A DNA stretch of 64,000 nt from Clostridiales bacterium DTU070. GTDB taxonomy: Bacteria > Bacillota > Clostridia > DSM-8532. The notes below the pieces were generated by a model. That model searched no databases and was not told the DNA's origin. It saw nothing but the letters and a program-made list of their open reading frames with translations. Below are positions 11,052 to 46,671 of this stretch, in pieces. The position numbers were made by a program, and so were the translations under genes. Location: NCBI GenBank assembly GCA_001513105.1, contig LFSH01000074.1, forward strand, positions 1-64,000, in the 5' to 3' direction. Within the stretch, counting starts at the first letter, position 1. Each line of letters starts with the position of its first letter.

Positions 11052-11089
11052 CAATTCATATATTTTCTGGTAATCTGAAAAAAATACTG

Positions 11090-11365
11090 CAAAAGCGATG
11101 ACGGGGAGAAAAGCTGCTTTTTCATGCTTCAGAGAGCTGTTGTAAGGTGGAAAACAGCGCATGATGCAGTAATAGCTCGCCCCCGAGTTTCCTGGCTGAA
11201 CATCCTTTTACCGCTGACAAGTAAGCCAGGACGGTTTGTCACCGTTATCAGAAAAGGCATTATGCGAATGAGGTGGGTAAGCTCGTTGCTTGCCAATAAG
11301 AGTGGTACCGCGGAAGTTAAGCTTTCGTCTCTTGCTGATAGCTTGAGATGAAGGCTTTTTTGCTG
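11090..11365 (+). promoter_or_regulatory. T-box riboswitch leader with intrinsic terminator
   Basis: Canonical T-box parts occur in order: a GA motif (AAAGCGATGA, 11092-11101), stem I with the AGAGAG bulge (11131-11136) and GGTG apical motif (11146-11149), the GTGGTACCGCGG antiterminator core (11302-11313) that contacts the tRNA acceptor end, then a terminator whose arms (about CTTTCGTCTC and GAGATGAAGG) are followed by a run of six T near 11356-11361. Uncharged tRNA should favour read-through into the fusion gene at 11422. I could not fix the specifier codon: CTC (Leu) at 11176-11178 followed by G is my first choice, ATA (Ile) at 11172-11174 the second. Confidence 0.9.
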
Positions 11366-40844: not shown

Positions 40845-41639
40845 TCAGATGTTTAAAAGCCTTGCTGCATTCGAGTACAGAATTGCACATTTTTCCTCAT
40901 CGGTCAGGTCCAGGTGAAGGAACCTGTTCAGTTCTTCCTCATGATCCCACATCGGATAGTCCGTTCCGAACAGAAACCTGTCAGCACCATGCTTCCTGAT
41001 CATGTTCACAGCCCTTTCGGGTTCGAGGAAAGCAAGGGTGCTGGATGTATCCATGTATACGTTTTTTCCTGCCAGGTACCTTAACGAATGGTCCCACATC
41101 CTGTAACCGCCGAAATGAGCGGCAATTACGGTGAGTGAAGGGAACAACCTGAGAACCTTTGAAAGCCTTTCAGGGCTTGAAGAGGTGCGCTTCTCATCTC
41201 CCATATGGATAAGCAGCGGAAGTTTCCCCTGGATGGAAGCGTATACGGGCATCATTTCCGGATCATCTATGCTGAAATTCTGAAATTCGGGATGCAGTTT
41301 AATGCCCTTAAGATTTAAGGAAATAATTCTCTGAACTTCCGCGTCAATATTTTTCATACCCGGGTGGAGAGTTCCGAAACCAATGATATTGTCGTGTTTT
41401 TTTACCGTTTCTGCAATAAAATCATTTATTGCCTTTACCTGTTCGGGATGAGTTGCCGATGAATGTACCACAAACTTTTCAACACCGATTCTCCCGCCTT
41501 TTTCCAATAAATCGGCAACCGTTCCCCTGCCGGACATTTTAATATTATAATAGCTGCCTATATTAAAAACTGCTTTTTCAGCAACTTTATCCGGGAAGAT
41601 ATGGGTGTGTATATCAATGATCCTGTATGTTTTATCCAT
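40845..41639 (-). CDS. Amidohydrolase family protein (PF04909 type)
   Basis: 264-residue TIM-barrel metal hydrolase. The metal-binding signature IDIHTHIFPD (HxH) is at residues 8-17; later metal or acid/base positions are in GIKLHPEFQNF, LIHMGDE, VIAAHFGG and FGTDYPMWDHE. This group includes decarboxylases and lactonases; no substrate can be assigned. It lies on the minus strand behind an ECF S-component gene on the same strand, about 70 bp apart, so the two may be cotranscribed. Confidence 0.85.
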   Translation of the reverse strand: MDKTYRIIDIHTHIFPDKVAEKAVFNIGSYYNIKMSGRGTVADLLEKGGRIGVEKFVVHSSATHPEQVKAINDFIAETVKKHDNIIGFGTLHPGMKNIDAEVQRIISLNLKGIKLHPEFQNFSIDDPEMMPVYASIQGKLPLLIHMGDEKRTSSSPERLSKVLRLFPSLTVIAAHFGGYRMWDHSLRYLAGKNVYMDTSSTLAFLEPERAVNMIRKHGADRFLFGTDYPMWDHEEELNRFLHLDLTDEEKCAILYSNAARLLNI

Positions 41640-41712: not shown

Positions 41713-42486
41713 TCATTTCGGGTTATCCATGCCGAAAAAGTATTCATTTGCTTTCAGCAGAGCGGGTGCAATTGCTGTTGTTATTGCAATGCCGGCAAGC
41801 AGTTGCAATAAATTCATCGGCACGCTGAAAACAGGTGATACAGGGTTTCCGTAAAGGATGAACTCTGCCAGGTAATAACCTGTTACCATGCATGCGCCAG
41901 AACTGAGCATTCCGATAACGCCTCCCGCGCCAATACCCTTTACATTCTGCTTTTTCGCCAGGTAAATAATAACAGCAAATATTATAATTATAACGGCAAT
42001 GATTGCTGCTGTCAAATAACGCTGGATATCCGAAGCCGTTTTGATAATGTTATCGGGAGAATCCCCGAGCGCTGATGCAAGAGAATCCGCCGAGAAATTT
42101 ACCGCTCCTGTTAGCGCGCTTTTAATTACAACTAAGAAAGCAACCCATACGGTAACGGTTGTTGCTGCAGAGACCATGATCTCCTTTTTTGTCCTGTGCC
42201 TTACAGCAAGCCCCATAACCAGTGCCATCAGTGATTTTATTATAAGGGTGGGTAATGCCCATTGTGCATACGGGGAGAGTATATCGGACAGCATTGAACC
42301 TACACCCGATGCAAAAGCACCGTAAAACGGACCCAGTAAAAGGGCAGAGATAAATACAAAACCATCACCGGGATGGATATAACCATTTACAGTGGGGATT
42401 TTGATTATACTCGTGGATAAAAAAACAAGGGCTGTCATTAACCCGGTCAATACAATTTTTTTAAGCCGAAAGTTTTCTTTATTCAT
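41713..42486 (-). CDS. ECF transporter substrate-binding (S) component
   Basis: 257-residue integral membrane protein with about six helices. The N-terminus KIVLTGLMTALVFLSTSIIKIPT and GYIHPGDGFVFISALLLGP are characteristic of S components that capture a vitamin and dock with a shared EcfAA'T module (not in this window). It is divergent from a MocR regulator, and MocR/PdxR-type regulators commonly control vitamin B6 uptake, so a pyridoxine-type substrate (PdxU-like) is my inference. An unusually large internal loop with DSPDNIIKTASDIQ separates the central helices. Confidence 0.78.
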   Translation of the reverse strand: MNKENFRLKKIVLTGLMTALVFLSTSIIKIPTVNGYIHPGDGFVFISALLLGPFYGAFASGVGSMLSDILSPYAQWALPTLIIKSLMALVMGLAVRHRTKKEIMVSAATTVTVWVAFLVVIKSALTGAVNFSADSLASALGDSPDNIIKTASDIQRYLTAAIIAVIIIIFAVIIYLAKKQNVKGIGAGGVIGMLSSGACMVTGYYLAEFILYGNPVSPVFSVPMNLLQLLAGIAITTAIAPALLKANEYFFGMDNPK

Positions 42487-42559
42487 ATCAGTCAGCTCCC
42501 GTATCGTAAGTATAATTCCGTATTGCCTTCCTTTCTTGTTATGATAGAATATAGCATAT

Positions 42560-42613
42560 AACTGACCACTAAAAAAGTGACAGTTTTATAAAAATTGAAA
42601 GGGACAGTTTTAT
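42560..42613. promoter_or_regulatory. Candidate MocR operator: three related half-sites
   Basis: Three copies of an (A/G)(T/G)GACAGTT-type word lie between the divergent genes: 42560-42570 in reverse (AACTGACCACT), 42576-42589 (AGTGACAGTTTTAT) and 42601-42613 (GGGACAGTTTTAT, overlapping the ribosome site and start of the regulator gene). One inverted and one direct pair, spaced about 25 bp, is the usual pattern for MocR-family binding sites. Confidence 0.6.
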
Positions 42614-43973
42614 GGTTTTCGAGTCTGCATGGTATGAATACCGGGACAAGAACATGCCCAAGTATGTAAGACTGTATTTCTGCATACGGAGAGAAATAGA
42701 GAAAGGGAATATAGAGCCCGGCTGCAAGCTGCCTTCAATACGCCAGGTGTCGAAGGAACTTGGCTTAAGCTCCACCACCGTCGAAAACGCCTATAACCAA
42801 CTGATGGTGGAAGGATATATATGCAGTATTCCCCAAAAAGGCTATTATGCTGCAGGCCTGGATCCTTCCCTTATAAATGCCGGCAACCTGCCCGTGAAAA
42901 AAGAGATCAAGGATGAAAAGCCTGAGGAAATGGGGAGTTTTATTGATACCGAAATCTTCAATTTCGGTGAATGGAGAAAAATATATAACCGTGTGATGAG
43001 AGAACAGAAGGAGTGGCTGCTTGTTGAAGGTGATCCGCAGGGCGAGAGAGAGCTGCGGAAAGCCCTGGCAGATTATACATACAAGGCAAGGGGGGTTGTC
43101 TGCAGCCCTGATCAGATAATTATCGGTTCAGGTGTGCAGACGCTTCTGCATATTTTCTGTGATATCGCCGCAGGTATTGTAAAACCGGAGGTTGCTTTCG
43201 AAGAACCGGGTTTTGTCGATGTACGGCCGGTTTTTCTGAAGAGGGGCTATAAACTGCATCCCGTAAATCTCGGCAGGGACGGTATTGATATCAAATCCCT
43301 TTATGAATCGGGGGCGGCGGTTTGTTATATTAGTCCTTCACATCAGTATCCCACCGGGCTGGTTATGCCTGTTCAGAAGAGGATGGAGGTTATCAGGTGG
43401 GCAGACAGTACCAACGGCTATATTCTTGAGGATGATTATGACAGCGAACTAAGGCTTTCAGGAAGGCCTGTTCCGTCCCTTTACAGTCTTGACAGCAGCG
43501 GGCGTGTTGTATATATCGGTTCCTTTTCAACGGTGATCGCGCCTTCATTACGCATCAGCTACATGATCCTGCCCGGTACTCTTAACGAAAGATACAAAAG
43601 CATTATTAGCGGATACAGGTCCACTGTTTCCACCGCAGACCAGCTTGTTTTGGCCGAGTATATAGATAAAGGGTTGTTTGAAAAACATCTCCGCAGGATG
43701 AGAAAGAAATGCGCTGAAAAACTGAACATTCTGAACCGGACAGCTGCCCGTTTCGCCGAACGGCTGAAAATTCATTCTTCCGGCACGGGTACATTCGTTC
43801 TGATCGAAGCGGACAGAAAGCATAGGAATAAGAAAATTTGCAATTCATATTTGTCAGAGTTGTGGGATGGTTTTTATGTATTCAATTATGCCGGTATCTG
43901 TGCCGAAAAATACGAAGAAATTCTTGGATGGTTAGTTTCATCTGCAAACACTTTAAGTAAAGATATCGTGTAA
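42612..43973 (+). CDS. MocR/PdxR-family regulator lacking the PLP lysine
   Basis: 453 residues. N-terminal GntR-type winged helix (SIRQVSKELGLSSTTVENAYNQL, residues 37-59) fused to a fold-type I aminotransferase domain (SPSHQYPTG, EDDYDSEL, APSLRISYMILP). The position that normally holds the Schiff-base lysine (GTFSK in GabR/PdxR) is threonine here, T307 in YIGSFSTVIAPS, codon ACG at 43530-43532. PLP could still bind non-covalently. The last codons (KDIV, stop) coincide with the first bases of a palindromic repeat array, so the C-terminus may have been replaced. Confidence 0.88.
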   Translation: MVFESAWYEYRDKNMPKYVRLYFCIRREIEKGNIEPGCKLPSIRQVSKELGLSSTTVENAYNQLMVEGYICSIPQKGYYAAGLDPSLINAGNLPVKKEIKDEKPEEMGSFIDTEIFNFGEWRKIYNRVMREQKEWLLVEGDPQGERELRKALADYTYKARGVVCSPDQIIIGSGVQTLLHIFCDIAAGIVKPEVAFEEPGFVDVRPVFLKRGYKLHPVNLGRDGIDIKSLYESGAAVCYISPSHQYPTGLVMPVQKRMEVIRWADSTNGYILEDDYDSELRLSGRPVPSLYSLDSSGRVVYIGSFSTVIAPSLRISYMILPGTLNERYKSIISGYRSTVSTADQLVLAEYIDKGLFEKHLRRMRKKCAEKLNILNRTAARFAERLKIHSSGTGTFVLIEADRKHRNKKICNSYLSELWDGFYVFNYAGICAEKYEEILGWLVSSANTLSKDIV

Positions 43974-44942
43974 ATTCTCGGAAACAGTCGCTTCGTTTGC
44001 AAAGAGCTGGGCAGTTCAGCTCGGGCAAGCCAAAGTTGGAAAAGTAATTAAGAAAAAAATCAGGTGCATTTTTGATCCGTTGGCTTGCTTGTCCTCGCTC
44101 TGACTGCACATTTCTAAGCTGCATTCCGCTTTAAGTTTCATCGCATTGCACGATATCTGCAATTACTTAAAGAAGGTAAAGATACCGTGCAATGCTTGGA
44201 AACAGTCGCTGCGTTTGCAAGAGCTGGGCGGTTCAGCTCGGGCAAGCCGAAACTCGCAAAAATGCTATAGAATAAAAAAGTAAGAAGCATTTTTGCTCAA
44301 ACAGTCGGATTGCTTATCCTCGCTCTGACCGCCCATCTCTAAGCTGCACTCCGCTGAAGGTTTCCTTGCATTGCACGATATCTCCGGAAACATAAAGGTA
44401 AGGATATCGTGCGAATGCTCAGAAGCAGTCGCTGCGTTTGCAAGAGCTGTGCGGTTCAGCTCGGGCAAGCCGAAACTCGCAAAAATGCTATAAAAAAATA
44501 TGGTAAGTGGCATTTTTGCTCAAACAGTCGGCTTGCTTGTCCTCGCTCTGACTGTGCATTTCTATGCTGCATTCCGCTGAAAGTTTCCTCGCATTGCACG
44601 ATATCTGCAATTACTTAAAGAAGGTAAAGATACCGTACAATGCTTGGAAGCAGTCGCTGCATTTGCAAGAGCTGTGCGGTTCAGCTTGGGCAAGCCGAAA
44701 CTCGCAAAAATGCTATAGAATAAAAAAGTAAGAAGCATTTTTGCTCAAACAGTTGGTTTGCTAATCCTCGCTTCTTCACCGCCCATCTCAAAGCTGCACT
44801 CCGCTAAAAGTTTCCTTGCATTGCACCGTATCTCCAAACACTTGACGGTAGCTGAATATGTAAAGATATCGTGCGAATGCTCAGAAACAGTCGGTGCATT
44901 TGCAAGAGCTGTGCAGTTCAGCCCGGGCAGCGAAACCTTTAT
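43962..44942 (+). repeat. Palindromic repeat cluster 2 (four full units and one partial)
   Basis: About 1 kb without a gene. Units: A 43962-44157, B 44181-44382, C 44403-44605, D 44629-44832, and partial E from 44865 to about 44942. Start-to-start distances are 219, 222, 226 and 236 bp. B and D share one loop sequence and start GATACCGT; C has another loop identical to that in the full unit of cluster 1. The linkers after A and C are identical, so the array probably grew by duplicating a two-unit (about 445 bp) block. Each unit is an imperfect palindrome with the perfect inner stem GCAAAAATGC / GCATTTTTGC (altered in A). Confidence 0.9.
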
Positions 44943-45441: not shown

Positions 45442-46671
45442 ATGGAAAATGCAAGAAGAGCCGAAGAAAGATTTGAGAAGCTGAGAAATGAAATTCAGGA
45501 TTACGAGAGTATTAAAGGCCAGATTTTAACAGGTATCGAGGATTATGAGAAAATAGAGTATCAGAAAAAGAAAATTCTCAAACATCTGAATGCCTCGGAA
45601 GATGACTACCGGGATTACCACTGGCAGATGAAAAACCGCTTTACGTCTTCGGAAAGCCTTTCAAAGATTATTGAACTGTCAGGGGATGAAACGAAATACA
45701 TTAATGAAGTGGCAGCCAGGTACAGGTTTGCTGTATCCCCGTACTATCTGTCATTGGTCGAACCCGACAATCCTGGCTGCGCCATTAGAAAGCAGGCAAT
45801 TCCTATGGCAGAAGAGTTAAACGACATAGGTGAACTCGATCCGATGGACGAGAAGGGAACCGCAATACACGAAATTATTACAAGAAGGTATCCCGACCGT
45901 TTGATTATAAAAATAACCAATGTCTGCGGCATGTTCTGCAGGTTCTGCCAAAGGCGCAGGCTCATAGGAGAGACCGACAAGGTTGTTCCGCGGTCAAAAA
46001 TCCAGACAGCGATAGAGTATGTACGTGAAAACAGCGAAATCCGGGATGTGTTGATTACAGGAGGGGACGCCTTTCTCGCATCGGACGAACTGATTGACTG
46101 GATGCTGAAAGAGCTCAGAGCAATACCGCATGTTGAAATTATCCGCTTTGGCACGAGAACGCCCGTAACCCTGCCGCAGAGAATTACAAAAAACCTCGTC
46201 GGTATTCTGAAAAAATATCATCCCGTGTTTGTAAATACACATTTCAACCACCCGAGGGAAATAACACCCGAAGCAAAAACAGCATGTGAAATGCTTGCAG
46301 ATGCCGGAATACCCCTCGGAAACCAGATGGTTCTTCTGAACGGAGTCAATAATGATAAATATGTTGTCAGAAAACTGAACCAGAAACTTCTTACGATAAG
46401 GGTAAAACCGTATTATATCTTCCATCCGAAAACAGTTAAGGGAACAAGTCATTTCTGGGTAAAGATAGAGGAAGGGCTGGAGATAATGGAAAGCCTTCGC
46501 GGCAGAACTTCAGGGCTTGCAATTCCTACGTATATCATAAACGGGCCGAAAGGACTCGGTAAAACGCCGATAATGCCGAATTATCTGCTGTGTCTTGGAA
46601 AGGATAAGGCAACGTTCAGGAACTGGCAGGGCAAGTCTTTTGAAATTGAAAATTTTGGTCCCGGTGCATAA
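45442..46671 (+). CDS. eam: Radical SAM 2,3-aminomutase, probably glutamate 2,3-aminomutase
   Basis: 409-residue KamA-family enzyme. The [4Fe-4S]/SAM motif is CGMFCRFCQRR; the PLP lysine lies in the C-terminal GPKGLGKTPIMPNY. In lysine 2,3-aminomutase two aspartates bind the substrate's side-chain amine (in a CDLSLG-like and a VVDAPGG-like stretch). Here the matching positions are Lys (FHPKTVKG) and Asn (IINGPKG), the replacements reported for glutamate 2,3-aminomutase, which makes beta-glutamate, an osmolyte in some anaerobes. Start ATG 45442 behind GTGAGG. It is preceded by a long leader and stands apart from asnS by about 115 bp. Confidence 0.82.
   Translation: MENARRAEERFEKLRNEIQDYESIKGQILTGIEDYEKIEYQKKKILKHLNASEDDYRDYHWQMKNRFTSSESLSKIIELSGDETKYINEVAARYRFAVSPYYLSLVEPDNPGCAIRKQAIPMAEELNDIGELDPMDEKGTAIHEIITRRYPDRLIIKITNVCGMFCRFCQRRRLIGETDKVVPRSKIQTAIEYVRENSEIRDVLITGGDAFLASDELIDWMLKELRAIPHVEIIRFGTRTPVTLPQRITKNLVGILKKYHPVFVNTHFNHPREITPEAKTACEMLADAGIPLGNQMVLLNGVNNDKYVVRKLNQKLLTIRVKPYYIFHPKTVKGTSHFWVKIEEGLEIMESLRGRTSGLAIPTYIINGPKGLGKTPIMPNYLLCLGKDKATFRNWQGKSFEIENFGPGA

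Follow-up and report, generated by a model that had tools for sequence, protein, structure and literature searches.

A conserved lysine-less branch of PdxR-like MocR regulators beside a vitamin-uptake gene suggests vitamin sensing without the usual bond

In a window of 64,000 nucleotides from Clostridiales bacterium DTU070 (contig LFSH01000074.1, positions 1 to 64,000), we found a PdxR-like MocR regulator that has lost the PLP-binding lysine. The loss is conserved throughout a clade of relatives, the rest of the pocket is kept, the gene is paired with a divergent ECF transporter S-component gene, its predicted operator motif is shared with other MocR genes, and the genome is devoid of the known PLP synthesis genes. 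A conserved lysine-less branch beside a vitamin-uptake gene suggests that the vitamin is sensed without the usual bond. MocR regulators are described as PLP-dependent and as switching by exchange of the lysine aldimine, and a branch without the lysine is therefore a natural experiment on the purpose of the aldimine, in which the role of PLP as a ligand to be sensed can be told apart from its role as a reactive cofactor. The branch also points to a pair of regulator and transporter in bacteria that apparently rely on vitamin B6 from outside the cell.

Results

A threonine at the site of the PLP-binding lysine

The regulator shows the domain layout of the MocR subfamily, with both Pfam GntR and Aminotran_1_2 matched, and scores 413.1 bits against the NCBIfam PdxR equivalog (NF052282, cut-off 320), the match ending at profile position 402 of 448. 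Its top PDB sequence match is 7pq9 (E 9.6e-83), which is B. clausii PdxR per Foldseek, and a Foldseek search with a predicted model, used for fold only, ranked B. clausii PdxR and B. subtilis GabR at the top. In the phmmer alignments, the lysine of GabR (chain position 312) and the corresponding lysine of 7pq9 both stand opposite Thr307, in the context YIGSFST(307)VIAPSLR, and the window regulator thus lacks the residue that all MocR-like regulators have according to PMC2018728. Automatic naming masks this loss, as lysine-less proteins pass the curated PdxR model. The sequence-only reading of this stretch had noted GSFST with ACG, one base from AAG, in place of the lysine codon, and preserved fold motifs around it (SPSHQYPTG, EDDYDSEL, APSLR); the codon indeed lies in the frame of the open reading frame, and all three motifs are present, with the remaining pocket kept. 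Since the lysine is really absent, no internal aldimine can form at position 307, and the conclusion drawn at that time, that effector sensing must differ, is upheld. The features are listed in Table 1.

Table 1 Positions of the regulator gene, of sites within and around it, and of neighbouring or related genes
Feature	Position	Strand	Basis
MocR-type regulator gene (PdxR-like; GntR winged helix and aminotransferase-like domain)	42612..43973	+	ORF, 453 aa
Thr307 codon ACG, place of the PLP-binding lysine	43530..43532	+	Sequence; alignment to solved chains
Codons of Asp274-Asp275-Tyr276-Asp277, kept pocket residues	43431..43442	+	Conservation in 75 clade rows
Predicted operator: a TGACC box followed by GTGACAGTTT and GGGACAGTTT repeats with a 24-base spacing	42563..42610	.	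Pattern, weight matrix
Promoter-like site of the regulator gene, immediately ahead of the operator	42523..42550	+	Consensus scan, number not above chance
Promoter-like site of the S-component gene; first hexamer overlaps first operator box	42541..42568	-	Consensus scan, number not above chance
S component (PF07155) of an ECF transporter, 257 aa, its gene divergent from that of the regulator	41713..42486	-	Pfam 113.9 bits, cut-off 26.7
Amidohydrolase (PF04909), downstream of the S component, same strand	40845..41639	-	Pfam
KamA-family radical SAM protein	45442-46671		Below glutamate 2,3-aminomutase cut-off, 630.8 of 650 bits
Arg-for-Lys MocRs outside the main clade	L087:5072-6493; L088:5169-6665; L091:4814-6247		Alignment, tree
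Arg-for-Lys MocRs outside the main clade	L095:4898-6472; L179:2181-3665; L183:1868-3280		Alignment, tree

An AlphaFold model of the regulator, with three sequences as input, reached a mean pLDDT of 62.6 and stayed below 50 at residues 307-312, and for this reason no pocket geometry was taken from it. A second MocR was not found in the same genome, where the other four of five matches span the winged-helix part only, so that no partner would be available to contribute the lysine to a heterodimer. Separately, a tandem array of 4.3 copies of a 225-base unit (43957-44936, 81% matches, with inverted halves in each unit by eye) overlaps the end of the regulator gene, starting in its last codons, and therefore sets its final residues; a search of this array against Rfam gave no match.

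Conservation of the loss

Threonine is likewise found in the orthologues of G003 (76% identity), G023 and G024 (59%), G032 (44%), and G042 and G079 (42%). A lysine, which would have pointed to the local mutation or error considered in the earlier reading, was not encountered in any of them; G002 contributes a fragment only (L007), which does not cover the site. Between the window gene and its nearest orthologue, L075, dN is 0.161 and dS 1.569 (NG86), giving a dN/dS of about 0.10.

For a broader comparison, 143 MocR proteins were assembled, for the most part from searches at class, family and phylum level; those shorter than 380 aa were excluded. The site is occupied by Lys in 60 rows, Ser in 62, Thr in 10, Arg in six, Ala in four and Asn in one, and as the window protein served as the query in collecting these sequences, the 83 lysine-less rows of 143 do not represent a frequency. 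All four threonine codons are used among the 10 Thr rows, and 58 of the 62 Ser rows use TCN codons, which lie two steps from a lysine codon.

In a tree of 142 rows (all trees omit the near-copy L100, which represents the same gene as L159), 75 lysine-less rows form one clade (SH-aLRT 95), composed of a subclade of seven Thr rows including the window protein and a subclade of 68 mostly Ser rows. Within this clade the site holds Ser, Thr or Ala, with lysine in none of the 75 rows, and the other six members of the Thr subclade all carry threonine (7/7 in total). The clade is nested in an 88-row group (SH-aLRT 99), of which the remaining 13 rows carry lysine. Outside it stand eight more lysine-less rows (six Arg, one Asn, one Ser), and the presence or absence of lysine requires seven changes on the tree, at least four of them on well-supported branches. 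When the lysine column was masked in a second tree of 69 rows, hand-picked from the 142, the 37 lysine-less rows fell on one side of a branch with a support of 94/90, and a single change sufficed in 93% of 200 bootstrap trees.

An adjusted PLP pocket

Arg149, Gly174, Asp274, Asp275, Phe305 and Ser306 are invariant across the 75 lysine-less rows, and Tyr276 is nearly so (entropy 0.10). Counted from the alignment, Asp274 and Tyr276 match chain positions 279 and 281 of GabR, and we take the stretch Asp274-Asp275-Tyr276-Asp277 to hold the contacts of the PLP pyridine nitrogen (Asp274) and of O3' (Tyr276). The Thr subclade retains His244 in addition to Asp274 and Tyr276, and has Arg314, opposite GabR Arg319, in all seven rows. 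The Ser-rich subclade shows further pocket changes at 203, 244 and 314; position 314 is Lys in 88% of its 68 rows and in no Lys307-bearing row. At position 203, opposite GabR Arg207, the window protein has Asp and the Thr subclade Asp (six) or Glu (one), Pro is found in 65 of the 70 remaining rows whose lysine site holds Ser, Thr, Ala or Asn, and Lys is the commonest residue (26/50) in Lys307-bearing rows that are not next to an ECF gene. Taken together, the invariant core residues and the altered positions 203 and 314 indicate that the pocket was adjusted and not abandoned. The loss of GabR Arg430 was considered as a sign of lost amine sensing and dropped: the C-terminal region diverges too strongly, and even in lysine-bearing rows no Arg dominates at the aligned columns.

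The divergent ECF S component

Among solved structures, the neighbouring S component matches 4hzu chain S best (E 2.4e-6), and since all NCBIfam names fall below cut-off, its vitamin cargo is putative. Its family, PF07155, is that of PdxU and HmpT (PMC9997740), and pdxU belongs to PdxR regulons (PMC5320631). In the Thr subclade, a divergent PF07155 S component, the putative B6 carrier, faces the regulator in all seven rows. Of the 143 rows, 139 have 700 or more bases of upstream DNA, and among these an ECF neighbour accompanies 8/10 Thr, 41/60 Ser, 2/4 Ala, 1/1 Asn, 3/6 Arg and 10/58 Lys rows, and it is present in four of the eight lysine-less rows outside the clade (L088, L163, L179 and L183) and not in L087, L091, L095 and L156. 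A general rule tying lysine loss to an ECF neighbour was rejected: tree-independent pairs pointed the same way in 2.4 of 12 cases on average and the other way in none (median p 0.5), and as the independent events are too few we make no such claim.

The amidohydrolase gene is a possible operon member with the S component; it is missing between the corresponding neighbours in L006. Downstream of the regulator, the KamA-family gene keeps its place in the gene order of L006.

The predicted operator

The operator pattern occurs once within the window, in the gap between the regulator and S-component genes. A 46-base weight matrix, derived from the upstream regions of 10 lysine-bearing, ECF-linked relatives only, gives 43.7 bits at this site, over 42563-42608, and 30 shuffles, which preserve base composition only, give at most 0.5. 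Sites scoring above all 30 shuffles were found in 8/8 ECF-linked Thr rows and 38/46 ECF-linked Ser, Ala or Asn rows, and, among rows that are not ECF-linked, in 9/21 with Ser, Ala or Asn and 26/50 with Lys. Given that a matrix built from lysine-bearing relatives matches lysine-less rows, the predicted DNA site stayed the same upon loss of the lysine. Two lysine-bearing rows that face pdxS also have the operator, namely L069 with 36.0 bits (pdxS G061:C11:48797) and L159 with 25.4 bits (pdxS G126:C15:30786), and this common motif ties the type of site to B6 genes. The candidate promoter of the regulator gene abuts the operator, which fits an arrangement for autorepression, and that of the S-component gene overlaps an operator box, which fits an activator position for the transporter gene.

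Vitamin B6 in the genome

In the genome of the window (99.95% complete), neither PdxS nor PdxJ was found. With both known routes of PLP synthesis absent, B6 must be imported. The same genome gave no PF08543 kinase above cut-off, its weak matches being hydroxyethylthiazole kinase and 1-phosphofructokinase, and salvage of unphosphorylated B6 would thus proceed without the usual enzyme, leaving a pathway hole between imported B6 and PLP. Genes for hydroxyethylthiazole kinase and thiamine phosphate synthase are both present. A second PF07155 match in this genome is a folate-type S component. Across 30 genomes searched for PdxS, 14 of which have a clade member, PdxS exceeded the cut-off in three of these 14 (G032, G126 and G371), and G126 and G371 each have both kinds of regulator, a lysine-bearing MocR facing pdxS (L159 and L160, respectively) and a lysine-less one elsewhere (L066 and L073).

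Discussion

We consider it about an even call that the protein is a PdxR-type regulator controlling the uptake of vitamin B6 and that it senses B6, probably as PLP, through non-covalent and reversible binding. The regulator dimer would occupy the operator in the gap separating its own gene from the divergent PdxU-like S-component gene, where it would hold down its own promoter and activate the transporter when B6 is scarce. As B6 accumulates, PLP or another phosphorylated B6 form would enter the preserved pocket and be held there by Asp, Tyr, Ser and Arg contacts without a Schiff base, upon which activation would cease. With no lysine, and hence no internal aldimine available for exchange, ligand binding is expected to be both quicker and more readily reversed, and amines, unlike GABA in GabR, are not expected to work through aldimine exchange. 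We infer both the identity of the ligand and its non-covalent mode of binding; for the direction of control we draw an analogy to the streptococcal regulator. In S. pyogenes, PdxR switches pdxKU on when B6 is lacking and represses itself modestly (PMC11619246). The gene layout resembles that of S. pyogenes PdxR, and the simplest reading would therefore be the same circuit with a different grip on B6.

Among known systems, B. clausii PdxR (7pq9, 7zn5, 7zla, 7zpa, 7zth) is close in domain layout and in fold alignments (35-40% identity). The likeness to PdxR extends to the equivalog score, the operator motif common to pdxS-facing MocRs and the transporter as a putative target, as in pdxU regulons (PMC5320631), whereas the window regulator differs in lacking the PLP lysine, in having Asp at the GabR Arg207 position and in matching poorly beyond residue 410. 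B. subtilis GabR likewise shares the fold and the Asp, Tyr and Arg pocket residues, but the window regulator has no lysine for aldimine exchange, Asp replaces Arg207 and the target genes are different. A MocR regulator without the lysine is also represented by EnuR Lys302His, for which loss of the yellow PLP and a locked repressor are described (PMC8739950); that variant was made in the laboratory, whereas the change reported here is natural and clade-wide. Finally, ColD and the E1 sugar 3-dehydratases combine the aminotransferase fold with a lysine replaced by His and still use a B6 cofactor (PMC8987622), yet these are enzymes with a catalytic His, and the Ser, Thr or Ala of the MocR clade could not act as that base. 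In the open literature searched, we found no description of a natural lysine-less MocR group, although a prior mention in subscription papers is possible, and a search for MocR with an ECF transporter returned one paper, on a mushroom extract.

The locked state of EnuR Lys302His is the chief worry for the proposed B6 receptor, since it means that loss of the lysine can amount to loss of sensing. The main rival is accordingly a regulator blind to its ligand and frozen in an apo-like state, which would keep the transporter on in a constant B6 scavenger and use the aminotransferase-like domain as a scaffold for dimerisation. This is in line with the constitutive repression and retained dimerisation of the EnuR variant (PMC8739950), with activation by PdxR without B6 (PMC11619246) and with a genome that has no known route to PLP, and pocket residues could indeed be kept for folding alone. 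We nevertheless regard it as unlikely, at something over one chance in five, because residues of a mere scaffold should drift and yet Asp274 is invariant in 75/75 rows, the lysine site itself is restricted to Ser, Thr or Ala, and constant uptake would be unnecessary in the three of 14 clade-member genomes with PdxS. Slightly less probable still is a pocket re-tuned for a different ligand, such as a ready-made PLP-amino acid adduct, PMP or another vitamin carried by the S component. Several of the observations that count against a B6 receptor are those that this proposal would explain, namely the other pocket changes of the clade (Asp or Pro at 203, and in the Ser-rich subclade the change at 244 and Lys at 314), the sub-threshold NCBIfam names of the S component and the lack of a PF08543 kinase above cut-off; the occurrence of PdxS in three of 14 clade-member genomes also counts against B6 sensing. 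Set against a different ligand are the operator, which is common to lysine-bearing MocRs facing pdxS, and the retention of Arg314, His244, Asp274 and Tyr276 in the Thr subclade.

That another pocket lysine bonds PLP in place of the lost one is improbable. Lys314 of the Ser-rich subclade, with its absence from every Lys307-bearing row, is the obvious candidate, but all seven members of the window's own subclade have Arg there, and the gained lysines 366 and 433 fall in C-terminal regions that are helical or align poorly, and nothing suggests that they reach the pocket. To a sequencing error, an assembly error or a dying gene we attach next to no probability: the threonine codon is a single base from one for lysine, but threonine recurs in six other genomes (G003, G023, G024, G032, G042 and G079), dN/dS is low, and both the operator and the open frame are intact. 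The orthologues, dN/dS and operator conservation together rule out error or a pseudogene, and, judged from these sequence comparisons, the lysine loss is neither an error nor a recent decay. Thus, of the interpretation offered by the sequence-only reading, altered sensing stands and recent loss of function does not, and the ECF gene, the operator and the missing PLP synthesis genes had been overlooked.

Returning to non-covalent sensing of B6, a broader version is conceivable, to which we give somewhat less than even credence, in which a widespread clade of MocRs in the bacterial class of the window turned the aminotransferase pocket into a plain reversible B6 receptor for an ECF B6 transporter; as some other ECF-linked members of the family lost the lysine independently, to Arg or Asn, the change may have been repeated.

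Some further observations concern the wider set of loci. The Arg-type MocR of L087 (G399) adjoins pdxS. By eye, the lysine-less clade member L070 (L070:6847-9366), which has no S component as neighbour, faces genes resembling an ECF energising module, and one ECF ATPase-like gene each (L131:209-1039 and L144:4436-5275) lies near the clade members L131 and L144, which have no S component beside them either. In the window itself, the sole Rfam match at the gathering threshold is a T-box leader (RF00230, 122 bits) at 11089-11335.
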